Source: Fructobacillus parabroussonetiae (lineage in GTDB: Bacteria > Bacillota > Bacilli > Lactobacillales > Lactobacillaceae). Taken from it: 64,000 bases of DNA. Where the stretch lies: positions 1 to 64,000 of the forward strand of contig NZ_JAAMFL010000004.1 of NCBI RefSeq assembly GCF_018437265.1, in the 5' to 3' direction. Made by a program: the position numbers and the translations under genes. Positions 20,019-54,681 of the stretch are shown in pieces; the stretch's first letter is position 1; the number at the start of each line of letters is the position of its first letter. The notes beneath the pieces were generated by a model. The model was not told the origin of the DNA. It saw only the letters and a list, made by a program, of their open reading frames with translations, and did not search any database.

Positions 20019-21269
20019 TTAGAATTGAACGTCCTTGCGACGCAAAGCTGGAATCGTTAACATCACACAGAGTGAGAAAACGTAGATCAGCGTAAAGAAG
20101 AGCAAGACGTGGTTGAAGGTCAACTTGTCCATCAAAACACCGATGATAGCTGGGAAGAATCCACCCAAGAACTTACCACCAGAGGCAACGACAGAGTTGG
20201 CCGTGACACGTGCTTCTGCTGGGTACAAACGAGAGACGATTACACCGAATCCGGCATACATGCCGTTTGAGAAGAACCCAACGACAACCATGATGGCCAA
20301 AAGTGACCAGTAGCCCGATGCCAAAGTTGGCAAGTAAAGGGCAACGGCCGACATGGACAAGAAGAGTCCAAAGGCCTTACGTGGTCCGAACTTGTCCAAA
20401 AAGGCACCGAAAAGATACATTCCAAAGGACATTCCAACGACCATGGCAACCGTCCACATCGTCGACTTTCCAACGGACAAGCCCAAGTGAGCCTGCATCG
20501 TCTTTGGTAACCAGGTCAAGATACCATAGTAGCCACCGATTTGGACCATCATCATCAGAATCAAGGCAATCGTCTGGTAGGCCAAGGCAGGCGTCTTGAA
20601 GACTTCGAAAAGTGGCAACTGTTGCTTCTTCTTTTCTTCAGCACGCTTGCGACGGGCTTCTTCGAATTCGGCCGAATCTTTCAGGTTACGACGAACAAAG
20701 TAAGCAAAGGCGATTGGGAGCAAGCCGAAGAGGCAAAGCGCGTTCCAGCCATAGCGAGGCAGGATAACGGCAGATGCCAAAGCAGCCAAAATGGTTCCCG
20801 TCTGTCCACCGATGTGGGCTAGAGAAGTTAGCTTACCGATTTTCTTGCCGGCAAAACTTTCGGCAATCAACGTCACACCCGCCCCGTATTCGGCAGCGGT
20901 TCCAAAACCAGCGATGAATTTCAAGGCATAGATTTCATAGATGTTATCGGCAAAGTACAGTGCTGCCGTTGAAAAGGCAACAACGAAGATCGTCCAATTG
21001 AAGATCCGCGCACGGCCAATCTTGTCAGCCAAGATACCGAAGAAGAGACCACCCAAGAGGGTTCCCGTCATGGCAAAAGTCGTAATTAACCCTGCTGCCG
21101 CTTGCGTGACGCCAAGCGAGCTCACAATGGCCGCCGTGGCGATTGGAATCAGCGAGTGATCCATGTGTTCCAGACTGAATCCGGCAGTCGTCGAAAGCAT
21201 GGTCACCTTCTGCTGCTTGGTAAAGTCCTTGTAGTGGATGGCATCAGCATCATTTGATGTTTTTGTCAT
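20019..21269 (-). CDS. MFS transporter (paralogue 2)
   Basis: A 416-residue major facilitator with 12 predicted membrane helices. The loop 2-3 signature GILADKIGRAR and the helix-4 block GFGTAAEYGAGVTLIAESF place it near the aromatic-acid/sugar-type symporters (AAHS-like). Substrate unknown. It is clearly paralogous to the gene at 21448. ATG 21269 is preceded by GAAAGGA; the open frame extends to 21302 but that part is the conserved leader hairpin, not coding. Own promoter and terminator. Confidence 0.85.
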   Translation of the reverse strand: MTKTSNDADAIHYKDFTKQQKVTMLSTTAGFSLEHMDHSLIPIATAAIVSSLGVTQAAAGLITTFAMTGTLLGGLFFGILADKIGRARIFNWTIFVVAFSTAALYFADNIYEIYALKFIAGFGTAAEYGAGVTLIAESFAGKKIGKLTSLAHIGGQTGTILAALASAVILPRYGWNALCLFGLLPIAFAYFVRRNLKDSAEFEEARRKRAEEKKKQQLPLFEVFKTPALAYQTIALILMMMVQIGGYYGILTWLPKTMQAHLGLSVGKSTMWTVAMVVGMSFGMYLFGAFLDKFGPRKAFGLFLSMSAVALYLPTLASGYWSLLAIMVVVGFFSNGMYAGFGVIVSRLYPAEARVTANSVVASGGKFLGGFFPAIIGVLMDKLTFNHVLLFFTLIYVFSLCVMLTIPALRRKDVQF

Positions 21270-21280
21270 TAAGTTGATTT

Positions 21281-21317
21281 TCCTTTCAAAATCGACGCTC
21301 ACAGGCGTCAGTTATTT
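21281..21317 (-). promoter_or_regulatory. Conserved leader hairpin, MFS paralogue 2
   Basis: Minus-strand AAAT...GACGC-(6)-GCGTC...ATTT immediately before GAAAGGA. The same element, with one compensatory base-pair change, precedes the other MFS gene. Confidence 0.55.
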
Positions 21318-21354
21318 CTGTGGGTGTTTGATTTTGTCTTTTTCACCAAGAGTA

Positions 21355-21383
21355 ACTATACAGAATGTCTTGGCCATAGGCAA
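21355..21383 (-). promoter_or_regulatory. Promoter, MFS paralogue 2
   Basis: TTGCCT (21378-21383), 17-base spacer, TATAGT (21355-21360) on the minus strand; leader of about 80 bases. Confidence 0.7.
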
Positions 21384-21399
21384 GCTCTTTTTCACAAAG

Positions 21400-21423
21400 A
21401 AAAAAGAGCCGCAAAAGCGACTC
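21400..21423 (-). terminator. Terminator of the upstream MFS gene
   Basis: GAGTCGC / GCGGCTC stem with T6 on the minus strand. Confidence 0.8.
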
Positions 21424-21447
21424 TCGAATGGTTTTAATTAACTTTTA

Positions 21448-22704
21448 TTAGAACTCAATATCCTTGCGTCGGAAGGCCGGAATGGTCAACATGATCAAGA
21501 ATGAGAACAGGTACATGGCCGTGAAGAACATCATAACGTGGCTCAAAGTGTATTTATCCATTAGCCAACCAATGATTGGTGGGAAGAAGCCACCAAGCAA
21601 CTTACCAACTGATGAAACAACCGAGTTGGCCGTCACACGGGCAAAGGTTGGGTACAAACGTGAAACGACCACGCCGTAACCGCCATACATACCGTTCGAG
21701 AAGAAACCAACGACCATCATGATGAAGAGTAGTGACCAGGCCGTCTTGGCAAAGAGCAAGAGGTAAATGGAAACACCGGCTAAGAGCAAGAATGTTCCAA
21801 AGGCCAAACGAGGGCCGAAGTTATCAAGGACAAAGCCAAAGATGTACATCCCAAGCGACATGCCGACAATCGTCACAATCATCCAGAGCGATGAACCGGA
21901 GATAGACAGGTGCAACTGCTTTTGCATGATCTTTGGCAACCAGTTCATCAAACCGTAATAACCACCGATCTGAATCATCATCATCATGATCAAGGCAAAG
22001 GTCTGGTAGGCTAAGGCTGGTGTCTTAAAGACTTCCAAAATCGGCGCCTTTTCAACAACCGATTCCTTGCCGTTTCGACGGGCCTCTTTTGTTTGGATAA
22101 ACTCGTCGGATTCCTTGACGTGTCGGCGCAAAACAAAGGCCAACAACACGGGAATCAAGCCAACCAAGAAGAGGGCGTTCCAACCAAAGGTTGGAATGAT
22201 AATGGCGGAAGCGACAGCCGACAAGACGGCACCAACTTGGCCACCGATTTGCGTCAAGGACGTCAGCTTTCCAATCTTCTTACCAGCGAAGTTTTCGGCG
22301 ATCAGGGTAACCCCTGCCCCATATTCGGCACCGGTACCGATACCGCCTATGAATCGAAAGGTATAAACCAGCCAAATGTTATGGGCGAAGTAGATGGCAC
22401 CCGTCGCAAAGGCGACGATGACCAGGGTCCAAGTAAAGACCCGGACACGACCAATTCGGTCAGCCAACATACCAAAGAAAAGGCCACCCACAAGGCTTCC
22501 AAACATTGAAATCGTCGAAATGAAGCCGCCGGCAAAGTTTGAAATGTGCAATGAAGCAATGATTGATGACATGGCAAAGGAGATGAAGAGCTGATCCATG
22601 TGCTCTAATCCAAAGCCTGCCGTCGTTGACCAGAGCGTCAGCTTCTGGTTGGTCGAGAAGTCACGATAGCGTAAGTACTCAACTTCCGTAGTGGGTTCTT
22701 GCAT
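21448..22704 (-). CDS. MFS transporter (paralogue 1)
   Basis: A 418-residue 12-helix major facilitator closely related to the next gene: GMLADRIGRVR, GIGTGAEYGAGVTLIAENF and the conserved C-terminal FRRKD ending recur. Helices and loops align throughout, so this is an old tandem duplication. Substrate unknown, AAHS-like subgroup by pattern. ATG 22704 follows GAAAGGA; the longer open frame to 22740 is the leader hairpin. Separate promoter and terminator, so each copy can be expressed on its own. Confidence 0.85.
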   Translation of the reverse strand: MQEPTTEVEYLRYRDFSTNQKLTLWSTTAGFGLEHMDQLFISFAMSSIIASLHISNFAGGFISTISMFGSLVGGLFFGMLADRIGRVRVFTWTLVIVAFATGAIYFAHNIWLVYTFRFIGGIGTGAEYGAGVTLIAENFAGKKIGKLTSLTQIGGQVGAVLSAVASAIIIPTFGWNALFLVGLIPVLLAFVLRRHVKESDEFIQTKEARRNGKESVVEKAPILEVFKTPALAYQTFALIMMMMIQIGGYYGLMNWLPKIMQKQLHLSISGSSLWMIVTIVGMSLGMYIFGFVLDNFGPRLAFGTFLLLAGVSIYLLLFAKTAWSLLFIMMVVGFFSNGMYGGYGVVVSRLYPTFARVTANSVVSSVGKLLGGFFPPIIGWLMDKYTLSHVMMFFTAMYLFSFLIMLTIPAFRRKDIEF

Positions 22705-22712
22705 GATTTTAT

Positions 22713-22751
22713 TCCTTTCAAAATCGATGCTCTCGGGCATCAGTTATTTTG
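22713..22751 (-). promoter_or_regulatory. Conserved leader hairpin, MFS paralogue 1
   Basis: Minus-strand CAAAAT-aac-T-GATGC-(6)-GCATC-G-ATTTTG directly before GAAAGGA. The middle pair of the inner stem (22728 with 22739) is T-A here and C-G in the other copy. Confidence 0.55.
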
Positions 22752-22993: not shown

Positions 22994-24478
22994 TTAAGGA
23001 CGCATTGTTGGGAAAAGAATGGCGTCACGGATAGTGTCCGTATCCGTCAAAAGCATGACCAGCCGGTCGATTCCAATCCCCAATCCACCTGTTGGTGGCA
23101 TGCCGTATTCCAGCGCTTCGATGAAGTCTTCATCGATCGCTTCGGCCTCGTCATTACCGTTTTCGCGTTCGGCAACCTGTGCTTCAAAGCGGGCACGTTG
23201 ATCGATCGGATCATTCAATTCGGTAAAGGCGTTTCCGTATTCAGAACCCATGATAAAGAGCTCAAAACGGTCCGTGAAACGTGGATCATCGGCGTTCTTC
23301 TTAGCCAATGGTGATACTTCAACGGGGTGACCATAGACAATCGTTGGCTGTTCCAACGTATCCTCAATGAATTCTTCGAAGAAGGCGTTAATGATGTGGC
23401 CAACGCCCCAGAACTTTTCGTACTTCACGCCCTTGTCATCCGCCAGCTTTTGGGCTTCTTCAACGGACATTTCAGGCCAAAAGTCGACCCCGGACTGTTC
23501 CTTAATCAAATCAACCATGTGCTTGCGAGCAAATGGCTTGTTTAAGTCAATTTCCGTTCCCTGGTAGGTAATCTTCAAGTCGTCTGAAACAACCGCCGCA
23601 GCGGCCTTAAAGATGCCTTCCGTTTCATCCATCACGTCTTTGAAGTCCCAGTATGCCGCATAGGATTCCATCGTCGTAAATTCAGGGTTGTGCTTGGCAT
23701 CCATTCCTTCGTTACGGAAGATCCGGCCGATTTCAAAGACCCGTTCCATGCCACCCACAATCAACCGCTTCAAATAAAGCTCCGTGGCGATTCGCATGTA
23801 CATGTCAATGTTCAACGCGTTGTGGTGCGTAATGAATGGCTTAGCAGCCGCACCACCGGCCTGGGTTTGCAAAATTGGGGTTTCCACTTCCAAGAAGTTG
23901 TTCTTTTCCATGTAGGCACGAATGGCTGAAACAATCTTTGACCGTTGTTGGAAGCGTACCAGTGAATCATTGTTGGCAATGAAGTCCAGGTAACGCTTAC
24001 GGTAGCGGGTTTCAACATCTGAAATACCGTGGAACTTGTCGGGCATTGGGCGCAAGGCCTTGGAAAGGTGGGTCAAGTGTGAAACCAAAACCGTCAACTC
24101 GCCGGCTTCCGTCTTCATCATCTGTCCTTCAATACCTAAAAAGTCACCCAAGTCGGAACGCTTAATAATGGGATAGTTCTCCCCCAAGTCGTCACGACGG
24201 GCATAGATTTGAATTTGACCCGAGCGGTCGCGGATGTCAGCAAAAATGACTTTACCAGCCCCACGCTTGGCAACCATTCGGCCGGCGATGATCACCTTAA
24301 CCGGGTTTGCTTCCAGTTCTTCCTGACTCTTGCCATCGAACTTTTCGTGGAGATCTGCAGCCAACGAATCGCGATCGAAACGGTGGCCAAAGGGATCGAT
24401 ATGAAGATCATCTTGCAAAGCGGCCATCTTTTGACGGCGCGCACGCATCTGATCGTTAAGGGCTTTTTCTTCAGCCAT
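22994..24478 (-). CDS. lysS: Lysyl-tRNA synthetase, class II
   Basis: A 494-residue enzyme charging tRNA-Lys. N-terminal OB-fold anticodon domain (residues about 50-150), then class II motif 1 ([18 protein letters not shown]), motif 2 ([17 protein letters not shown]) and motif 3 ([11 protein letters not shown]) are complete. Upstream are an extended -10 (TGCTATACT) and a GGAAGG ribosome site. It ends the conserved cluster hpt-ftsH-hslO-lysS but has its own promoter after the hslO terminator. Confidence 0.97.
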
Positions 24479-24550
24479 GGTTCATTACCTTCCTGTCGGC
24501 GATTTTCTCGCATTTATCTACTAATCAGTATAGCAAATGCCAAAGCATTT

Positions 24551-24576
24551 AAAAAGTCGGCCAAAGCCGACTTTTG
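24551..24576 (-). terminator. hslO terminator
   Basis: AAAGTCGGC / GCCGACTTT stem with short T-run between hslO and lysS. Confidence 0.75.
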
Positions 24577-24580
24577 ACGA

Positions 24581-25510
24581 TTATTTCGTTGAATCGGAAG
24601 AATCGTCTTCTTTTTCCTCAGCTTCACGTTTCAAGACATCTTGTAAAATAATGTCTAATTCGTGAGCTGTAAACTGGTGGCGCTTACCAGAGAACTTGCC
24701 GCGCACTTCGGCGCCCCCATCTTCGTCAATCATCGCTTGGATTTCAGAGGATGGCAGGGTCGCCAACTGCTTGGCATAGGCTTCCTTGTCCGGCTCGGCA
24801 GCCAAGCCAATTGTCACCGCCTGTAACTTGCTGTAGTTTTCTTTTCCGAGAATGGCATCTAAGATGGCCAAGGGGCCCTTCTTGTCGCCTAAGAGACTGG
24901 CCAAGGATGGCATGTTTTGCAACTTTTCATTAAGGTCTGCTAATTGTGCATCACTAGCCCCTGGCAGAGCTTGAACCAAGAAGCCGCCGGCGGCTTTGAC
25001 TGTGTCATCTGGATTCATGGTCACCCCAACACCAATAACGGAGGGAATCTGTTCGGAATGGGTTAAGTAGTAGGTAAAGTCGTCACCAATCTCACCAGAA
25101 ACCATAATCGATTGGCCAATGTAAGGGTTGGAATAGGGCGCAAACTTCGTGACCTGGAAGGCGCCATTGTTGCCAACGGCACCCGCCACGTTCAACTGGT
25201 TATCATCGTTGACGATTGGCTCGATGGTTGGATTGGACACATAACCACGAACCGCTCCCTTTGTATCGGCTTCCGTTACAATTTGGCCGATCGGACCACG
25301 GCCAGCCATCTTCACGTTGAGCCGCTCTTCACCCTTTAACGTTGCCTGGGCCAAGATTTCGGTCGCTAAGAGGGCCCGGCCCAAAACAACGGTCGCCAGG
25401 CGCGAGGTTTCATGTGCACTAGCTGCTTCTTGGACGAGCTTTGTCCCGTCAACGGCAAAGGCACGAAAGGCCTCATCCTTTGTAATAACTTTGATTAATT
25501 GATCTGCCAT
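24581..25510 (-). CDS. hslO: Hsp33 family chaperone without redox cysteines
   Basis: A 309-residue Hsp33: the N-terminal fold (residues about 1-235) contains RGPIGQIVTEAD, RGYVSNP and YYLTHSEQIPS, all family blocks. Normal Hsp33 ends in a CxC...CxxC zinc domain that unfolds on oxidation to activate the holdase. Here that domain is kept in outline (IQAMIDEDGGAEV) but there is no cysteine anywhere in the protein: CxC aligns with A-E-P near 238-240 and CxxC with GKFS at 271-274. The tail is acidic. It either lost redox control or is regulated otherwise. ATG follows AAAGGAG; sits between ftsH and lysS as in other Firmicutes. Confidence 0.9.
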   Translation of the reverse strand: MADQLIKVITKDEAFRAFAVDGTKLVQEAASAHETSRLATVVLGRALLATEILAQATLKGEERLNVKMAGRGPIGQIVTEADTKGAVRGYVSNPTIEPIVNDDNQLNVAGAVGNNGAFQVTKFAPYSNPYIGQSIMVSGEIGDDFTYYLTHSEQIPSVIGVGVTMNPDDTVKAAGGFLVQALPGASDAQLADLNEKLQNMPSLASLLGDKKGPLAILDAILGKENYSKLQAVTIGLAAEPDKEAYAKQLATLPSSEIQAMIDEDGGAEVRGKFSGKRHQFTAHELDIILQDVLKREAEEKEDDSSDSTK

Positions 25511-25527: not shown

Positions 25528-25557
25528 AAAAAAAGCTGGCCGAAGCCAACTTTTTTG
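25528..25557 (-). terminator. ftsH terminator
   Basis: Minus strand AGTTGGC / GCCAGCT stem, then T6. Confidence 0.8.
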
Positions 25558-25562
25558 TGTTC

Positions 25563-27650
25563 TTATGCCTTTGAATCGTCATCTGAAGGCGTGTCGTCAG
25601 GGCTTTCCTTGGCCTCTGCATCGTCATCCAATGCTTGGTCAGGATCGGCCTTGCCGCTTTCTTCCGCCTCTTCAACTTCGTCTTCCTTGTGGTTCAAGGC
25701 TTCCTTCGTTTGGTCATAAGACTTGGCATCATCGTCCTCTTCTTCGCTCTTTGGCGTGAAGTGACCCGTTTCATAGATGTCTTTAATTTGCTTTTCATCA
25801 AGTGATTCGACTTCAAGCAAGGCGTTGGCGATTTGGGCCAACTTTTCCTTGTTTTCAGTCAAAATCTTCGTTGCTTCTTCAAAGGCCTGCTTAGTCAATC
25901 GACGAACTTCTTCATCAATCAAAGCAGCCGTTTCCTCTGAATAAGACTTGGCACCGCCACCCTCGTTGTATGAAACGGAGGCGTTTCCTTCCAGTTGAAC
26001 CATGCCCAACTTGTCAGACATTCCATAGGCCGTCACCATCTGACGGGCCAAGTTGGTTGCCTGTTGGAAATCGTTGGCAGCCCCTGACGAAGCTTCGTCA
26101 AAGGTTGCTAATTCGGCAGCACGGCCACCCATCAAACCAGCCAATTGCTCCAAGGCTTCGGAGTAACGGATGTTATAACGATCCGTCTTTGGCGTCATCA
26201 AGGCGTAACCACCAATGCGGCCACGGGGAACGATGGTTACCTTACGGACAACGGAGGCGTTGGACTTAACCAGACCAACCAAGGCGTGACCAGCCTCGTG
26301 AAAGGCGGTCGTCTTGCGCTCAAGGTCTGACATGGTCTTGTTTGCCTTCGCTGGTCCTTGGAAGATCCGGTCTTCGGCTTCGTCCAAGTCAGCAGCATCA
26401 ATGGTCTTTTTGTTACGACGAGCAGCCAGCAAGGCAGCTTCGTTCAACAAGTTTTCCAAATCGGCCCCGACATAGCCAGGGGTCTGGTGGGCGATCGCCT
26501 TCAAGTCAACGGAATCAGCCAATGGCTTATTCTTGGCGTGGACCTTCAAGATGGCTTCACGGCCCTTCACGTCTGGTGCACCAACCATGATCTTCCGGTC
26601 AAAACGACCAGAACGAAGCAAGGCGGGATCCAAGACGTCCGAACGGTTGGTTGAGGCCAAAATAATGACCCCTTCCGAATTATCAAAACCATCCATTTCA
26701 ATCAGGATTTGGTTCAGCGTTTGTTCCCGTTCGTCGTTTCCACCACCAACACCGGAACCACGACGACGGCCAACGGCATCAATTTCATCGATGAAGATGA
26801 TGGCCGGCGCGTTCTTCTTGGCCTGTTCGAAGAGGTCACGGACACGTGATGCCCCGACACCCACAAACATTTCGACAAAGTCGGATCCAGAAATTGAGAA
26901 GAATGGCACGGATGCTTCACCAGCAACCGCCTTGGCCAACATCGTCTTACCAGTTCCCGGAGGTCCCTCGAGCAAGACACCCTTTGGAATGCGGGCACCC
27001 ATTTCGGTAAACTTCTTTGGTGACTTTAGGAATTCAACAACTTCGACAAGTTCTTCCTTCTCTTCGTCGGCACCAGCCACGTTTTCAAAGCGGGTCTTGT
27101 TGTCCTTTGGATCAGAAGGCTTAGCCTTTGACTTACCAAAGTTACCCATCATGCCGCCCTGGCCACCCTTACCGGCTGACTGAGACATCATCATGTAGGC
27201 GATTCCCAAGATCAACAGCATTGGGACAACGGAGATGATCAAGTTCAACCAGAAACCAGATGAAGCCGCTGGTTTCGTCGTCATTTCGGTGTTAGTCTTC
27301 TTGGCTGCCGCCGTAATATCTTTGATTGATGAATCGTTTTGCAAGACCGACGTTTGGAACTTAGTTGTCGATGATTGCTGGGCAATCAAGGCGTTCAAGC
27401 CAGAGTTCGAACTCTTTTGTGATTGGCTCTTCTTATAAGTTCCGCTAACGGTGTAAACATCGTTTCCAGGTTGAATCGTAAAGGAATCAATTTCCTTATC
27501 GGAAAGTGACTTGACAAACTCGGACTGTGAAACCGTCTTCGTTGTTGTTTTTGAGCCACCCATGAAAGAGTAAATCCCAGCGATTACCGCCAGGAAGATG
27601 ATGACATATAGGAAGGAGCTTCGAAAGAAGCCGCCGTTTTGGTTTTTCAT
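25563..27650 (-). CDS. ftsH: ATP-dependent zinc metalloprotease FtsH
   Basis: A 695-residue membrane AAA+ protease degrading membrane and regulatory proteins. Membrane helices at about 12-30 and 133-154 flank an extracellular domain; Walker A GPPGTGKT 229-236, Walker B IIFIDEID 284-291, second region of homology RSGRFDR 346-352, zinc site HEAGH 451-455. The C-terminal 60 residues are very acidic. ATG has AGGAT upstream. Downstream of hpt in the classical tilS-hpt-ftsH order. Confidence 0.97.
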
Positions 27651-46753: not shown

Positions 46754-47296
46754 TTACTGATGAAGAGTAATAAGCTTATCGACTTTACTGGTCAACTCAC
46801 CAATACTTTTTTGTTCTTCGTATCCAGGAATTTTAACCTGAAAGTCCGATAGGGCTTTTTTGGTTATTGTTTTAATAATTCCGCCAGGGGCCTTTCTGCT
46901 TTCAATATTAAATTTATTTTGAATCACGTACGCCCAGAAGTGGTCATCAGTTTTCCTAAGATAGTTCTCAAAAATCAAAAGGGTTCTGTCTACGTAGGAA
47001 TCGTACGGCGTGACGGCAACACGTCCAATACTACCTTGAAGCGTGACAACAACGGTACCTTTGGGAACAAACACACTTTTTGGTTGAGCTACTTTGCTAA
47101 TTTTCTGCTTTGTTTCAGGAACTAACGATAAATCTTTATTTACATCAACAACTTGAATAAACGGCATAGCCCCTTTCCCGCCATACCATTCTGGATTACC
47201 GTATGGCTGTGGGAACGATCCGCGCCGAAAGAAAGCGTATTCCCCTAACCTACGCTGTTCCCAAGGACTCACGTGAGAAGCTATTTTGTAAAACAA
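46754..47296 (-). CDS. Silent half-HsdS recognition cassette C
   Basis: One target-recognition domain of a type I specificity subunit. After a non-homologous lead (MFYKIASHVSP) it reads WEQRRLGEY, then a TRD with RKAPGGIIKTITKKALSDFQVKIP, and stops exactly after VDKLITLHQ, the point where the complete HsdS continues into its conserved helix. The open frame begins with TTG and lacks a good ribosome site. It is about half of a normal HsdS and lies downstream of the hsdS terminator, so it is best read as a stored cassette; expression of a half subunit cannot be excluded. Confidence 0.8.
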   Translation of the reverse strand: MFYKIASHVSPWEQRRLGEYAFFRRGSFPQPYGNPEWYGGKGAMPFIQVVDVNKDLSLVPETKQKISKVAQPKSVFVPKGTVVVTLQGSIGRVAVTPYDSYVDRTLLIFENYLRKTDDHFWAYVIQNKFNIESRKAPGGIIKTITKKALSDFQVKIPGYEEQKSIGELTSKVDKLITLHQ

Positions 47297-47387
47297 AATA
47301 AATAATAAAGTTTAGTATACAATGCGTCTTGAAGAATTTACTTATCTTTCTAAACTCAATGTATAATAGTTACTTTGTATTTTCTAT

Positions 47388-47906
47388 TTACTGATGAAGA
47401 GTGATGAGCTTATCAACTTTTTTTATTAACTGTCCCACTTGCTGCTGTTCAACAGAATTTGCAGGAACATTGATCTGTTGTAGCATCAATTCTGTTTTAG
47501 TAACCCCTTTAATTGAAGTTCCTTGTGCTGCATTACCTAACTTGTTCATCAATTTGAATAATAAATATACAGCAAAATCAGGCTTAACTTGCAAGTTACT
47601 TAGAGAAATAAAATCCTGGCTAGTGGAATACTCATTTCCTATAAACGCTAATTTACCAACTCCTACACGGGTAACAAGCGCGATAGAATTTTTAGGCACT
47701 AGCTTTGCTGCCGATTTTTGAAGTCCTTCATTCGTGATCCATTTTCGATAATTAACATCATACAAATTATTTTCTTGTAAGTCTGATGATTGAATCCAAG
47801 GAAGACTACCACCCCAGTATTTTGTAACTCCGGTTTTTGGTGTTCCTCCTCCAGAATAAATAGATGCTAATTCTGAAAGCTTACGCTGTTCCCAATAATT
47901 TTTCAT
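47388..47906 (-). CDS. Silent or half-size HsdS cassette B
   Basis: 172 residues: MKNY, WEQRKLSELA, a TRD (YSGGGTPKTGVTKYWGGSLPW at the start, typical of HsdS TRDs), then VEQQQVGQLIKKVDKLITLHQ and a stop. Unlike the other cassettes it has a proper ATG with AAAGGATG upstream and a TATAAA box nearby, so it could be made as a half subunit; half-size HsdS proteins can dimerise into a working specificity subunit in known systems. Same orientation as hsdS. Confidence 0.8.
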   Translation of the reverse strand: MKNYWEQRKLSELASIYSGGGTPKTGVTKYWGGSLPWIQSSDLQENNLYDVNYRKWITNEGLQKSAAKLVPKNSIALVTRVGVGKLAFIGNEYSTSQDFISLSNLQVKPDFAVYLLFKLMNKLGNAAQGTSIKGVTKTELMLQQINVPANSVEQQQVGQLIKKVDKLITLHQ

Positions 47907-48026
47907 TAAACATCATCCTTTTATACATTAATCTGTATTTAGTTTGGAAATATGTCCGTCGAAAAATCGTAACTATTATTTTAAAACATAACTGAATATG
48001 CAATGCTTATATCTCTAAACAAAATG

Positions 48027-48527
48027 TCATGTACGCCGATGAAGAGTAAGAAGTAATTCAATTTCGATTAATAATTCACCAATCTTTTTTTGTTCTACAT
48101 ATTTTGGAACAACTACATTCTGTTTTAAAAAATCTTTTGCTACAAGATTACTCATCATTGTAGCTTTTGTTGTAGACCTCATTAATTTCCGCCCCATAAT
48201 AGGTTCATAATTAATAAAGTATTTCCAGTAAGAACTATCAAAAGAAATCCTTGGTCTAAACACATCAAAAACATGGGATACTATACCCTCTCCGATAGTA
48301 TTTTCAACAAATCTTCCATAAGCAAAATTTTTACTTTTATTACCTTCAAACGCTATGTCCCCCTGTCTGAAAACATTATATGTTTTCATATAATCCATAG
48401 TAGATTTATTTACATGTGAATCTTTAAAGTACATATTGGCGACAGAAATAATTTTACTTGAATCAAATTATCCGTCATTTTTTTCTATCACTTTACTGTA
48501 TATTTCGCCAAACTTACGCTGTTCCCA
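48027..48527 (-). pseudogene. Silent HsdS cassette A with an in-frame stop
   Basis: Starts at WEQRKFGEIYSKV (48527) without any start codon and continues in one frame to LLLTLHRRT, but codon 48468-48470 is TAA (NDG-stop-FDSSKIISVANM). The rest of the TRD (VFRQGDIAFEGNKSKNFAYGRF) looks healthy. It follows the hsdS terminator immediately. Moving it into hsdS would give a truncated subunit. Confidence 0.8.
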
Positions 48528-48529
48528 AC

Positions 48530-48565
48530 CAAAATAAAAAACTGATAGTATTTTATACTATCAGT
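48530..48565 (-). terminator. Terminator separating hsdS from the silent cassettes
   Basis: ACTGATAGTAT / ATACTATCAGT perfect 11-pair stem, then TTTTTTATTTT on the minus strand, three bases from cassette A. Confidence 0.85.
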
Positions 48566-48709
48566 TCACATTTATCTTATTGTTTTGATGAAGCTATTCT
48601 ACTTATAACTATTCGTATAAAGCAGTAGAAATGTTTAAATAGAATTATACTTATCAGGAATAAAAATATTTTTTCTAAATATTAAAGCAAACGATGGTAT
48701 CTTCTCTTC

Positions 48710-49900
48710 CTAAACAAACAAATTTTGCAAAAGAGATTTTTTAACTGATTCAAGTTTTTCCAACTTTCGTTGATGAAGAGTGATGAGGCTACCTAGACTT
48801 AACAAAATAGTTTCAATTTGCTTTTGCTCTTGGGTACCAGTAATAGAATAGATAATTTTTGAAAGTGATTTTGAATTAATATGACGTATTGTAGTTCCAG
48901 TTACAAACGGAATAATCTTATTTGGTACTGCATTAATCTGATAAGATAAAAAACCTGCCTCAGTGTCCTTATTCAATTCAGCAATAAGAACATCTCCACC
49001 AATTTTCACACTATTATCAGTTAAATACGATGTTCTAGCAAGCCCTACAGAGGTTACATCAGACATTGGGAATAACAACGAATTACTTTTTAAGTCATAT
49101 CCCTCTTCACTAGTCGTCCAATGAATCACATCACGCTCTACGGGTTTAAATTTATACAAATCAGCATAATGCAATGCTTTGGATCCAACCCCTTCACTAT
49201 TCAGCTTATCTTTCGATAGTTCAAATCCTTTTGACCAAGTAGTCAGTTCACCTAACTTACGCTGTTCCCAATCATCAGTAAATCCACTGAATCTCAATTC
49301 AGGAACCGACTCTCCATTTTGGGGGAACATTTTTTGGAGAAGTAGTTTTTTGAGTTTCTCGAGACCTTCCAACTTACGTTGATGAAGAGTAAGAACGTTA
49401 TCAACTTTGTCTAACAACGAGCCAATTTCTTTTTGTTCTTGATATTCGGGCAACTTAAATTCTAATTTCATCATCACATCAGAATTTAACTTAGCCCTTC
49501 CACCTCCAACAAGAAACGGCTCTATATTTATGGTTTTAAATGAATTCGACAGGAATCCATTATCGGCTGCATCCATCTTTCCGGCTACAACGTGGGCATG
49601 GTTATTCACCCAAACCTTACCGTTAACCCTACGAACAGGATAGTTAGACAGGTCGCTTGCCCCATCTTCTGCGATTAATAAAAAGTCACCGTCGTGTGTA
49701 TATCCGTCGACATAATCTTGGATTCCGTTAGCCCCGTAATACGGAATATCCCCATTAACACGTTTACCGGCTGTTATGGGTTCTCTCAAATTATCAAAAC
49801 GATCTGCGAATGTACTCAACTTACGCTGTTCCCAATCGTCCGTGAAGCCTTTGAAACGGATGTTGGGGACCATTTTTTTATCGTTTTTTAGGCCTGTCAT
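48710..49900 (-). CDS. hsdS: Type I restriction-modification specificity subunit
   Basis: A 396-residue complete HsdS that fixes the DNA target of the complex. TRD1 (about residues 23-172) and TRD2 (211-370) each begin at DDWEQRKL and end at LTLHQRKLE; the conserved spacer helices LEGLEKLKKLLLQKMFPQ and LEKLESVKKSLLQNLFV follow each. The ATG overlaps the hsdM stop (ATGA). It is the only complete copy in the array and therefore the expressed form. Confidence 0.93.
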   Translation of the reverse strand: MTGLKNDKKMVPNIRFKGFTDDWEQRKLSTFADRFDNLREPITAGKRVNGDIPYYGANGIQDYVDGYTHDGDFLLIAEDGASDLSNYPVRRVNGKVWVNNHAHVVAGKMDAADNGFLSNSFKTINIEPFLVGGGRAKLNSDVMMKLEFKLPEYQEQKEIGSLLDKVDNVLTLHQRKLEGLEKLKKLLLQKMFPQNGESVPELRFSGFTDDWEQRKLGELTTWSKGFELSKDKLNSEGVGSKALHYADLYKFKPVERDVIHWTTSEEGYDLKSNSLLFPMSDVTSVGLARTSYLTDNSVKIGGDVLIAELNKDTEAGFLSYQINAVPNKIIPFVTGTTIRHINSKSLSKIIYSITGTQEQKQIETILLSLGSLITLHQRKLEKLESVKKSLLQNLFV

Positions 49901-51540
49901 TTCAACACCTGCTTTATCAGATCGAGCGTTTTCTGGCTTTCGGGGTTAGTAGCCACAAGGTCGTCCATTTGTTCATTAATTTGCTTCGTTAAATCGGCGA
50001 TTTCAGAATCGATTTCGGTCATGTCTTTGAGAAGGGCTTCAGCATCGACTGGTTCTTCTTCTTCAAACGTGTCAACGTAGCGGGGAATGTTTAAGTTGAA
50101 ATCATTTTCTTTGATTTCGTCCATCTCGGCAACGTGCGCATATTTTTCGACATCTTCGCGCTTTTCATAGGTTTCGATAATTTTATCGACATCTTTATCA
50201 CGCAAAATGTTCTGTTTCTTGCCTTTTTCATAATCGTTCGAGGCATCAATAAAGAAGATATTCTTATTCGTCCGGTTCTTCTTGAAAACCAAAACGACCG
50301 TTGGAATTCCGGTTGAGAAGAAAATCCCTTCTGGTAAACCAATGACAGCGTCCAGGTAGTTCTTTTCAATGATAGCCTGACGAATCATTCCTTCAGCGGC
50401 ACCACGGAAAAGAACACCGTGAGGCAAAACAATGGCCATCGTTCCTTCACGGTCCAAGTGGTAAAGGCCGTGCAAAACAAAGGCATAATCAGCCTTTGAT
50501 TTCGGTGCCAACTTACCAAAGTCCTTGAAGCGTGGATCCTTCATCTTGTTATCGTTGTTATCCCACTTGGCAGAGTATGGTGGGTTGGCAACGACAGCAT
50601 CGAAAGTGACAGGAGACAAAACACCGTTACTCTCACGTGATGGCCAATCATCTTCCAAAGTGTCAGCATTACGCAAATCCATATTTTGATAATCAACACC
50701 GTGCATCATCAAGTTCATACGAGCCAAGTTATAAGTGGTTGTGTTCAACTCCTGACCTTCAAAGGCGACGCGTCCCTTGTCATGACCATTCTTTAACTGG
50801 TCTTGCACTGTAAGCAAAAGGGAACCAGACCCCATGGCCGGATCATAGACCGTAAATTGTCCGTCTTCCTTGGCATCCAAAGCAACCAACTTAGCCAAGA
50901 TTTTTGACACTTGGTGGGGCGTATAGAATTCTCCAGCCTTTTTACCAGAATTACCGGCAAATTCGGCGATCAAATATTCGTAAACATCTCCTAAAATGTC
51001 ATGCCCGTTTTCATCTTCATAATCAAAAGTATCAACGGATTCCACAACGGCACCCAATGACTTGGCACGAGCAGCGGTCGAGTTACCAAGACGGGAATTT
51101 CCCAAGTTAACGTCAGCAAAGATTTCACTAAAATCTTCCTGAGCAGACTGGTTAAGCTGAGCGTTTTTGTTAAACTCATCGAACATGTCTTGGTAGTCAG
51201 ACGGCTTAATATCTCCGGAGTGTACCTTGTCGACAATCGTCTTCCAAGTAAACTCAGGCTCGATGGCATAACCTAAACTACGGGCGATGTCTTCAATGTA
51301 TTCTTCACGGTCGTCACCTTGAGCTTCACGACGATAAGCATCGTTGACACTTTCGCCTTCTTTAACATCCAAGAGCTCTTCTCGAACCATATAGTCTTCT
51401 TGGTGTTCTGAAAGGTACCGATAGAACATGAATCCCAAAATATAGTTTCGGAATTCGGACGCATCAAGGTTTCCCCGCAAGTCATTGGCCATGGACCACA
51501 ATTGGCTGGTAATTGACTGTGCCGTTTTCTGTTCAGACAT
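49897..51540 (-). CDS. hsdM: Type I restriction-modification methyltransferase subunit
   Basis: A 547-residue N6-adenine methylase. The N-terminal HsdM bundle (residues 8-150), AdoMet motif DPAMGSG at 233-239 and catalytic NPPY at 319-322 are intact, and a C-terminal helix pair (LTKQINEQMDDLV) contacts HsdS. ATG has AGGAGA upstream and follows hsdR by 21 bases. Modifies host DNA in M2S1 and restricts with HsdR. Confidence 0.96.
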   Translation of the reverse strand: MSEQKTAQSITSQLWSMANDLRGNLDASEFRNYILGFMFYRYLSEHQEDYMVREELLDVKEGESVNDAYRREAQGDDREEYIEDIARSLGYAIEPEFTWKTIVDKVHSGDIKPSDYQDMFDEFNKNAQLNQSAQEDFSEIFADVNLGNSRLGNSTAARAKSLGAVVESVDTFDYEDENGHDILGDVYEYLIAEFAGNSGKKAGEFYTPHQVSKILAKLVALDAKEDGQFTVYDPAMGSGSLLLTVQDQLKNGHDKGRVAFEGQELNTTTYNLARMNLMMHGVDYQNMDLRNADTLEDDWPSRESNGVLSPVTFDAVVANPPYSAKWDNNDNKMKDPRFKDFGKLAPKSKADYAFVLHGLYHLDREGTMAIVLPHGVLFRGAAEGMIRQAIIEKNYLDAVIGLPEGIFFSTGIPTVVLVFKKNRTNKNIFFIDASNDYEKGKKQNILRDKDVDKIIETYEKREDVEKYAHVAEMDEIKENDFNLNIPRYVDTFEEEEPVDAEALLKDMTEIDSEIADLTKQINEQMDDLVATNPESQKTLDLIKQVLK

Positions 51541-51561
51541 ACTGTCTCCTTCAATCTTTTC

Positions 51562-54500
51562 TTAGTATTCTTCGACAAAGGCATCCGCAAACTTTGTAAA
51601 GGCTTCACTGAAAGCATTGCGGTACTTAATTTTCTTCAAGTTTTTTACTTCAGGATCATTGGCTAGTTCTTTATAATTTGCCTGACCATTTTGGCGCAAT
51701 TCATCCAACTGTCCCATCGTATTCAAATCATCTGAACCCTTTTGATGTTCGTCCAAGACTTTTTGAATTTCAGCAACTTTTGCGTCCAGTCCCCACTGGT
51801 TAATGAACTGACGGATAGTTCCTCGTTTGGAAACATTTTCTGAATCCTTCAATAGGCCTTCAACATCATCAGCCTTCACTGGATAATCCCCAGCTTTCAT
51901 CTCTCCCGAACGGAGTCCAGATGCTGTTCGCTGAACTTGCTTAGCGTACTTTTGATCATCCAACTGCTTCGTTTGCTTTTGAATATCTTCATATGTTTTA
52001 GTGGCCTTTTCGTGTTCATTGTCGTGAACTTGATTAGCCAAGTCGGCAAGTAAATCTTTCAGATAATCATAGTTCACTTTAACATCTGAAATGTGAGTCA
52101 TTTCAAGGTCAAGCTCACTAATTTCAACACCTTCTCGTTTGGCAACTTTTTCTTTGATTTGTGTCGTCAATGAACCAGTTAACGTGCGTTCCTGCTCTTC
52201 GTTCAGGCCAATCTTTTCAAGAAGGGCTTCAGGTTCATCGTAGTTATATTCTGGGTATTGCTTTAATTGGTTAACCAAGCGATTATAGCGACGTAAGTCC
52301 TTCATCATTTCTTCTTGATCATTTTCAGAATTTGGCGTGTCGATAAAGTCTTGAGTGAAGGCACGAAGATTGTTGACTACTTCGGATGCATCTTCGATGA
52401 CTTCCTTGAATGGTTTAGCCAGGATGGGGCCGTTTCCGTCTCCTTCATCTTTATCTCCCGAATTATCAATATCAGCTGAATTCTTGTTCGAATACAGTTC
52501 CAAAGCTTGATTCATAATTTGCTTTGACAATTCTGGCCAACGGTAGTTGATAATCAAACCATATGGTTTTGTCGTGTTGTTTTCGATACGGTTTGTACGT
52601 GAATATGCCTGAATTAAACCAGCGCCCGCAAGGGTACGATCAACGTAAAGCGTGTTCATTTTTGGTGCATCGAAACCAGTTAAGAAACGGTTAACAACAA
52701 TAACCAAATCCAGGACTTTGCCATCACCAGACGAACGGTTTAAGTGGGCTGCAACATCTGCCGTATATTCATCCTCGTTTTCTTCCGAGAACTTACCCCC
52801 AAACATTTCAGAATAATCAGACACCGCTTCACGCCATGCCTCATTATTCTCATTCATGTTGTCGTCGTTACTCTTATTTAACGAGAAGGTAATCGCGATA
52901 TTCAGCTTTCGCTTTAGCTTTGGATTATCCTCTGTGTTTTGTCTCTTAAATTCACGATAGTACTTCATTGCCAGTGGAACGGATGGCTTGTTTCCTGAAG
53001 CGTGAGTCGTAAAGAGGGCGTTGTACTTATAGTCAGCCGAACGGTTTTGCCAGTGTTCCAAAATTTCAGAAACAACTTCTTCAACGTGCTTATCGTTGTT
53101 ATCATAAATATTTGGTTCAACAGCCTGATCGATATCGGCAGCTGTCATCGTATTAATCTTTTGCTGAATCTTAGTGTCATCCCAATCTGGATGTTGCCCC
53201 GCATAATACTGTGGCAGATACTCTTCCTTCACCGTTTTTTCAGGCAAAGTAGTTCGGAATTCGACATTAAAACCAAGCACGTTGTGATCAGCGATGGCCT
53301 CACGAATCGTATAGGAATGAAGTAATCCACCAAAGATATCTTGAGTACTTGGATTCTTTTCGAACATCGGCGTTCCAGTATATCCAATCCAAGCAGCATT
53401 CTTAAAGAATTTACGTGCTTTTTCAAAACCTTCTCCACCAGTTGAGCGGTGTGCTTCGTCAACCACGAAAAGAATATTTTTATCGAATTTGTCTCGCTCA
53501 GCTGCATACTTATCAGCTAAACGATTCATCTTTTGGTTCGATGTGACGATAATCCCTTTTACATCTTTTGATTGAAGTTTTTTCTTCAAATCAGACACGT
53601 TAGCCGTATCTGAAACCACTGACGTTTTACTATCTGATGTAGCGTCTGGATCAAAAGCTGTGTACTGTGAAGTGGTTTGATCCGTTAAGGCGACACGATC
53701 AACCATGAAAACGACTTTTTCAACATTCGGCTTACGTGATGCTAACCAAGCTGCTTTAAAAGAAGAAATCGTCTTTCCTGACCCCGTCGTATGCCAGACA
53801 TAACCAAGCTTTGGATCATCGATGCCAAAGTGATGACGTTCGACTTTATCAAGGACACGCTTCGTTGCGTATACTTGGTACGAACGCATGACCTTGAGCA
53901 TTTCACGGCCCTTCGTCCCATCCAAAACCATAAAGTTTGTCGCCATTTGATGCGCCATTGGGATTGATAGAAATTCGTTTGTAAACTCCTTCCAATCGTT
54001 AACACGGGTATTATCTTTCTCTCGCTGCCAACGGAAGGCAAAAGCCTTGTTAAACTTGTCAGCCGTTGCAGCCGCCATGTACTGAATGTCAGATGGCGTC
54101 ATGGCAATCAGAATCTGAATCATTGAAAAAATATCTGAGTACTGCCCTTCTTGGGTGTACTTTTCCATCTGATTCAAGGCTTCAGAAGAAGGATGAGAGT
54201 TCGTCTTTTCTTCAATCTGAATGATTGGCAATCCGTTAATAAGCAAGGTTGTATCAAAACGTCGATTTTCGCGGCCGGCTTGTACTTTGGGACGCTGAAT
54301 CTGGTTCACGACTTGATAAACCGTATTTCCTGCCCCGATTTGTGAAGAATCAAAGACGTCCAAAAAGACGTGTGTGCCATCATCTAAATCAACTTCAATT
54401 TGGGAAGTACCGTTTGATCCATACAGAAATTGTCCTGCTTCATACGGTGTTTGGATATTTGTAATAACTGTTTGAACTTGCTTGAATTCTTGATCTGAAA

Positions 54501-54681
54501 GTGGCTTATCCAACTTCGGATTATTGCGTTCTAAAATTTGCTTAAAGTTCGCCCATAACTGTTCGTTTGTCTTAATATCTGAACGATATTCCCATTGCTT
54601 AGTTCCACCTAGTTGTTGAAGAAAAGCAATGAGTTCATCTTCAAATTCCAATTCACGTTGTTGATCGGCTATGGCATTCAT
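51562..54681 (-). CDS. hsdR: Type I restriction enzyme endonuclease/translocase subunit
   Basis: A 1039-residue motor-nuclease. N-terminal PD-(D/E)xK nuclease with RRFDTTLL and IIQIEEKTN (residues about 140-160), helicase Walker A TTGSGKT at 298-304, DEAHRST box near 400, motif VVNRFLTGFDAPKMNTLYVD and QAYSRTNR (motif VI) further on, then a C-terminal helical HsdM-contact domain. No disruption. First gene of hsdRMS; the module appears fully functional. Confidence 0.96.
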   Translation of the reverse strand: MNAIADQQRELEFEDELIAFLQQLGGTKQWEYRSDIKTNEQLWANFKQILERNNPKLDKPLSDQEFKQVQTVITNIQTPYEAGQFLYGSNGTSQIEVDLDDGTHVFLDVFDSSQIGAGNTVYQVVNQIQRPKVQAGRENRRFDTTLLINGLPIIQIEEKTNSHPSSEALNQMEKYTQEGQYSDIFSMIQILIAMTPSDIQYMAAATADKFNKAFAFRWQREKDNTRVNDWKEFTNEFLSIPMAHQMATNFMVLDGTKGREMLKVMRSYQVYATKRVLDKVERHHFGIDDPKLGYVWHTTGSGKTISSFKAAWLASRKPNVEKVVFMVDRVALTDQTTSQYTAFDPDATSDSKTSVVSDTANVSDLKKKLQSKDVKGIIVTSNQKMNRLADKYAAERDKFDKNILFVVDEAHRSTGGEGFEKARKFFKNAAWIGYTGTPMFEKNPSTQDIFGGLLHSYTIREAIADHNVLGFNVEFRTTLPEKTVKEEYLPQYYAGQHPDWDDTKIQQKINTMTAADIDQAVEPNIYDNNDKHVEEVVSEILEHWQNRSADYKYNALFTTHASGNKPSVPLAMKYYREFKRQNTEDNPKLKRKLNIAITFSLNKSNDDNMNENNEAWREAVSDYSEMFGGKFSEENEDEYTADVAAHLNRSSGDGKVLDLVIVVNRFLTGFDAPKMNTLYVDRTLAGAGLIQAYSRTNRIENNTTKPYGLIINYRWPELSKQIMNQALELYSNKNSADIDNSGDKDEGDGNGPILAKPFKEVIEDASEVVNNLRAFTQDFIDTPNSENDQEEMMKDLRRYNRLVNQLKQYPEYNYDEPEALLEKIGLNEEQERTLTGSLTTQIKEKVAKREGVEISELDLEMTHISDVKVNYDYLKDLLADLANQVHDNEHEKATKTYEDIQKQTKQLDDQKYAKQVQRTASGLRSGEMKAGDYPVKADDVEGLLKDSENVSKRGTIRQFINQWGLDAKVAEIQKVLDEHQKGSDDLNTMGQLDELRQNGQANYKELANDPEVKNLKKIKYRNAFSEAFTKFADAFVEEY

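Follow-up and report, generated by a model that had tools for sequence, protein, structure and literature searches.

Hsp33 is the textbook redox-regulated chaperone. In the window analysed here, which comprises 64,000 nucleotides of a Fructobacillus parabroussonetiae contig, its gene hslO (Table 1) encodes a protein devoid of cysteine, and the locus poses the question of what such a protein can still do and what has become of the domain that served as its switch. The first-pass annotation had assigned the gene to Hsp33 and reported that no cysteine occurs in its 309 residues; the latter was confirmed in the ORF translation and the former by two family models. Pfam PF01430 spans the product fully (model positions 1-273 of 273; 251.8 bits versus a cut-off of 21.4), and the NCBIfam HslO equivalog NF001033 scored 265.9 versus a cut-off of 244. 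The source genome assembly, which is 93% complete, contains this single Hsp33 match. The closest named protein in a scan of named genomes, among the 80 best-ranking stretches out of 232 confirmed, is Hsp33 from Fructobacillus papyrifericola (94% identity), and relatives of solved structure include B. subtilis 1vzy, described in passages of PMC7423844 as the reduced form of that protein, and T. maritima 1vq0.

Table 1. Coordinates of hslO, its former switch domain and motifs, and its flanking genes in the window.
Feature	Position	Strand	Basis
hslO / Hsp33, 309 aa, no cysteine	24581..25510	(-)	ATG start; ORF list and family models
Former redox-switch (C-terminal) domain, residues 231-291	24638..24820	(-)	Alignment to Cys-bearing relatives; predicted folded, ten-residue pLDDT means 85-95
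Codons 238-240, Ala-Glu-Pro where CxC expected	24791..24799	(-)	Alignment
Codons 271-274, Gly-Lys-Phe-Ser where CxxC expected	24689..24700	(-)	Alignment
ftsH, directly upstream of hslO	25563..27650	(-)	ORF list, named loci
lysS, directly downstream of hslO	22994..24478	(-)	ORF list, named loci

With a full-length model match, the ftsH/lysS neighbourhood and a predicted three-part fold of core, linker and C-terminal domain, the product is by sequence homology a full-length Hsp33/HslO. Alignment placed Ala238, Pro240, Gly271 and Ser274 at the four zinc positions, in agreement with the earlier claim that the zinc-binding cysteines had been replaced, and the motif MIDEDGGAEV, by which the redox-switch domain had been recognised, corresponds to residues 260-269. 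Neither the CxC nor the CxxC of the redox-regulated zinc Hsp33 is present, nor is any thiol available for the activating disulfides (0 Cys in 309 residues), and by mechanism the protein, as far as its sequence tells, fails the defining test of that group.

Among the 80 named loci, an ftsH ORF was found in 79, the remaining locus lying at a contig end, and lysS in 77. The position of lysS differs between two sets of genomes: it directly follows hslO in 43/43 loci of the clade of food and fruit bacteria comprising Leuconostoc, Fructobacillus, Convivina, Oenococcus and Weissella (hereafter, the clade), and lies approximately 1 kb further on in 34/34 other loci with lysS in reach. At one of the latter that was checked, from Pediococcus acidilactici (L112), the hslO-lysS gap holds a dihydrouridine synthase gene (dus); a gene of roughly 1 kb between hslO and lysS is absent at window positions 24479-24580 and in the 43/43 clade loci. 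On the other side of hslO, a hairpin with a T-run was seen by eye at 25528-25556, between ftsH and hslO, with paired changes (likewise by eye) in several Fructobacillus and Leuconostoc, and could be an attenuator preceding hslO; no terminator, this hairpin included, was called in a scan of the hslO region. Elsewhere in the window, positions 46757-54681 hold what we take to be a type I restriction-modification-like locus, where longer entries of the ORF list are accompanied by several short fragments resembling specificity subunits, and positions 20022-22740 hold two adjacent genes, presumably for MFS-like transporters, with similar N-termini, perhaps a tandem duplicate.

The lack of cysteine is not in itself a notable fact. 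The mechanical ORF set of the window contains 48 cysteines in 18365 residues, 37 of its 59 ORFs have none, and the chance of finding zero in 309 residues at this frequency is 0.45. What is far from chance is the loss of four zinc sites that all the relatives read hold. Sequencing error, which the first-pass annotation had raised as a possible problem, was excluded because the same cysteine-less state recurs in 13/13 genomes of the genus, in five related genera and in the named genomes. Nor did the clade lose its zinc-cysteine sites in general, since the zinc ribbon of RpoC is retained in 28 of the 29 loci read, and 17 of these 28 belong to clade genomes; the odd row (G174/L192) is short or in a wrong frame, and G194 gave no RpoC match. 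Cysteine is somewhat rarer in the N-terminal part of RpoC in the clade than outside it (0.57% versus 0.92%).

The loss had been presented as a property of this gene, and it is real here, but it is shared by the Leuconostoc, Fructobacillus, Convivina, Oenococcus and Weissella loci read. Hsp33 was found in 13/13 genomes of the genus and in 194 of the 201 genomes of the family sample, and cysteines were read in the genus genomes, in the 30 best-scoring family-sample matches and in 45 chosen genomes, of which 38 had a match. None of the four zinc cysteines was present in 38/38 intact loci from the window's genus and five related genera, the window's own included. Outside the clade all four were present in 40/40 intact loci, a set that leans to the best-scoring matches, which supply 30 of the 40; two more cysteine-bearing genomes have a split gene, with the four cysteines in the C-terminal piece. 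The 80 loci of the named-genome scan, which are the best-ranking of 232 confirmed stretches, agreed: all four zinc cysteines were missing in 42/42 intact clade loci (10 from Fructobacillus, 2 from Convivina, 13 from Leuconostoc, 2 from Oenococcus, 12 from Weissella and 3 from unclassified relatives), and CxC...CxxC was found in 37/37 intact loci outside the clade, from Pediococcus, Secundilactobacillus, Furfurilactobacillus, Apilactobacillus, Lentilactobacillus and others, together with Bacillus, Sporolactobacillus and Turicibacter. The overlap between the two surveys is large, so that their counts are not additive; among the intact loci of either, none had lost the four cysteines only in part. 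The hslO of L. fallax (L111 and L072; genome G018) is broken by stops; these two entries probably represent one genome, because they are identical over 228 residues. Its dnaJ is frame-broken too, which suggests assembly errors.

Beyond the family, an Hsp33 match was obtained in 293 of 295 sampled genomes of the order and in 147 of 249 of the phylum. Cysteines were read in 36 low-scoring genomes, 20 from the phylum sample and 16 from the order sample (two of the latter from the window's family), the phylum picks not being strictly the lowest scorers, as G681 and the partial matches of G496 and G459 were passed over. CxC...CxxC was found in 34 of these 36 (in G378 the gene is split and its C-terminal part carries the motif), although such low-score sampling would miss any high-scoring cysteine-less Hsp33 elsewhere. 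The two exceptions are a divergent fragment (G551) and a Lactobacillales protein (L213 of G229) that lacks the second zinc cysteine only, with CPY replacing CxC and the other three cysteines remaining. Within the genomes sampled, complete loss of the four cysteines was seen only in this clade. Separately, no Hsp33 match was found in 4/4 sampled genomes of genus g9 (G020, G058, G088 and G114, two of which are 85% complete) or in 2/7 sampled genomes of genus g8 (G113 and G161).

A tree built on FtsH, LysS and the core of Hsp33, with the C-terminal domain omitted, grouped the 21 rows of the cysteine-less clade, L. fallax included, as one clade with an SH-aLRT support of 100, which was still 100 after removal of the long Turicibacter row. 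An unrooted RpoC tree of 28 genomes under a mixture model, without the G174 row, separated the clade from the other genomes by a branch with a support of 98; a first RpoC tree with that flawed row had given the split only 46. Both the concatenated and the RpoC trees came from quick searches, with SH-aLRT as their sole support measure. In an FtsH-only FastTree the cysteine-less group was not one clade, and Weissella stood beside cysteine-bearing Lactobacillaceae. The gene order, with lysS directly after hslO in the clade, agrees with the single-clade trees. As the cysteine-less state is common to all clade loci read, the loss most likely dates to the ancestor of the clade.

The former switch domain has been retained along with the gene. 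Omitting the four cysteine columns, the rate of the C-terminal domain relative to the core was 1.51 in the clade versus 2.18 in cysteine-bearing relatives. Column bootstraps (24 each) overlapped, with a median of 1.57 (sd 0.29) for the clade and 1.98 (sd 0.55) for the relatives, and we therefore limit the claim to the absence of relaxation, not to stronger constraint: from these alignments, the domain appears not measurably relaxed compared with its cysteine-bearing counterparts. Values of pN/pS, which derive from hand-chosen pairs (15 and 12) with synonymous differences near saturation in many of them, were 0.142 in the clade versus 0.169 in the relatives for the C-terminal domain, 0.103 versus 0.074 for the core, and 0.174 versus 0.114 for the linker. 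Core and linker thus seem, if anything, slightly freer in the clade, so that selection on the entire gene is not tighter there. At the residue level, Tyr245 is invariant in the 43 cysteine-less rows, where all 37 cysteine-bearing rows have Phe, and Pro253, Asp264, Phe273, Phe280 and Leu285 are likewise unvarying in those 43 rows. At the former cysteine positions, Ala, Pro, Gly and Ser are fixed in 28/28 rows from Leuconostoc, Fructobacillus and Convivina, with other residues occurring in Weissella and Oenococcus.

Structures predicted with AlphaFold2 for the window protein and for Hsp33 from Oenococcus oeni had mean pLDDT values of 91.5 and 92.9, respectively, and in both models the C-terminal domain was about as confident as the rest. 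Residues 2-293 of the window model superposed onto 1vzy, a structure that we assume to contain zinc, with 290 residues aligned (Z 37.1, rmsd 2.0), and Foldseek gave a target-normalised TM of 0.92. The sequence is therewith predicted to be compatible with the closed fold in the absence of zinc. AlphaFold2 tends to return the familiar metal-bound fold also for proteins that have lost the metal site, and the model is no proof of the closed state because the program likely knows this fold.

The partner chaperone DnaJ shows a parallel change. A search with DnaJ_C identified dnaJ in 30/30 genomes, with a dnaK ORF at the same locus in all 30. The dnaJ frame is without cysteine or zinc finger in 20/20 clade genomes checked (one, G018, being the frame-broken case), and carries 8 cysteines and four CXXCXGXG motifs in 10/10 other Lactobacillaceae, including two without Hsp33. 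In keeping with this, the DnaJ zinc finger PF00684 scored above cut-off in 6/6 other genomes and in 0/16 clade genomes; weak matches in 12 of these 16 (20-24 bits) fell in frames of 762-973 aa, which are too long for DnaJ. Pfam analysis of two clade DnaJ proteins and one control agreed with loss of the zinc finger in the clade. The DnaJ of G000 (L265, about 1123-2043), for example, has a J domain and DnaJ_C, no PF00684 match and 0 Cys, and thus lacks the central zinc finger with four CXXCXGXG that marks a type I DnaJ. According to passages of PMC4428491, E. coli DnaJ deprived of most of its zinc-finger domain could still assist DnaK as a co-chaperone in vitro when conditions were reducing, and 2.5 times more of it was required to reach the half-maximal rate. 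The matching losses in the genomes checked suggest that the chaperone relay may have changed together, bearing in mind that two changes marking the same clade amount to a single coincidence and not to a replicated correlation. Tentatively, and at somewhat less than even weight, we propose that the Hsp33-DnaK/DnaJ relay was freed of zinc and thiols as one unit in the ancestor of the clade, with both losses falling on the same branch. An oxidation-gated relay would thereby have become thiol-free and gated by unfolding stress, and the former sensor domain would have been kept for a new or previously hidden function.

As for Hsp33 itself, oxidation of its own cysteines cannot, judging by the residues present, be the trigger in the clade: with no zinc cysteines remaining, oxidants have no disulfides through which to open the protein, as the first-pass annotation had maintained. 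We see about even chances that it is instead a zinc- and thiol-independent holdase gated by unfolding, with the former sensor serving as a folded clasp. The C-terminal domain would fold metal-free and clasp the linker over the client-binding surface, and the clasp would open upon direct unfolding of the metastable linker and C-terminal domain by heat, acid, ethanol or similar stress. The opened protein would then hold unfolded proteins and hand them to DnaK with its zinc-free DnaJ, so that in the clade a holdase once gated by oxidation would now answer to unfolding stress alone. No mark of a heat or acid trigger was found in the Hsp33 sequence. The unfolding-opened clasp has a precedent in the algal Hsp33 of Chlamydomonas, which has lost one cysteine and, as described in passages of PMC7423844, does not bind zinc and shows an increased sensitivity to mild heat or oxidation.

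The conserved and probably folded sensor domain argues for either such a clasp or a job of the closed form. The latter could consist in a task of the reduced state that was kept when holdase activity was given up with the cysteines: by analogy with E. coli, where passages of PMC8614738 state that only reduced Hsp33 binds EF-Tu, does so through the folded redox-switch domain and requires that domain to unfold EF-Tu, the folded C-terminal domain would bind a specific client such as EF-Tu and promote its unfolding and removal. Such a role predicts a folded domain conserved without its cysteines, as seen, but the E. coli route ends in Lon, and the Lon_C matches found in 22/22 genomes searched, cysteine-bearing ones included, were all listed as partial. 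They cover about 58-113 of 205 positions at 19-37 bits, most of them passing the Pfam cut-off, in frames of 179-485 aa, and look like other S16-type proteins rather than Lon; if so, the Lon step would need a substitute. We consider this role unlikely, if still a serious candidate.

That the protein is a constitutive holdase, whose C-terminal domain and linker are undocked for want of zinc and whose client site is always open, we regard as improbable. A single linker-destabilising mutation makes Hsp33 constitutively active, according to passages of PMC10598452, and loss of zinc should, by our reasoning, weaken the clasp. An idle domain should drift, however, and the C-terminal domain shows no measurable acceleration, relative to the core, over its counterparts in the relatives, keeps the six invariant positions listed above and is predicted by AlphaFold2 to be folded and docked; a conserved switch domain argues against a simply constitutive chaperone. 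Drift of hslO toward loss, finally, is disfavoured and very improbable. The broken copy of L. fallax would fit it, but the dnaJ of that genome is similarly damaged, which points to the assembly; the remaining clade loci read are all intact (38 and 42, in overlapping sets), and pN/pS is well below 1 in every domain of the clade proteins (0.10-0.17), which upholds the earlier view of a conserved core that is not decaying.

In the open-access literature, searched through titles, abstract starts and some passages, no prior report of a clade-wide loss of the Hsp33 cysteines was found, and none of the DnaJ zinc-finger loss in the clade was found among the matches listed. A clade that keeps both the gene and the sensor domain without the cysteines constitutes a natural experiment, in which the function of Hsp33 is separable from its switching, and it provides some forty orthologues in which redox-independent functions, such as an unfolding-triggered holdase or EF-Tu handling, can be tested.

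Compared with known systems, Hsp33 of the clade shares with the zinc proteins of E. coli, B. subtilis (1vzy) and T. maritima (1vq0) full-length homology and the predicted fold, C-terminal domain included, and with those of other Lactobacillaceae the ftsH and lysS neighbourhood; unlike the E. coli, B. subtilis and T. maritima proteins, it is without the four zinc cysteines and hence has no such zinc site and no disulfide switch. Passages of PMC7423844 report a survey of 1579 Hsp33 homologues in which the four cysteines are called fully conserved and fewer than 10 lack the second one. The latter group and L213 resemble the clade in having an altered zinc motif in bacteria, but L213 keeps three of the cysteines. 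Chlamydomonas Hsp33, as presented in the same passages, is alike in that the protein was retained after zinc binding was lost, which in the clade corresponds to the disappearance of the zinc cysteines; the alga, however, lost one cysteine and still responds to oxidation, whereas the clade bacteria lost all four. DnaJ of the clade, in turn, resembles type II J-proteins such as CbpA, as described in passages of PMC4428491, in having J and C-terminal domains and no zinc finger, with the difference that in the clade it is the dnaK-linked dnaJ itself that is without the zinc finger.
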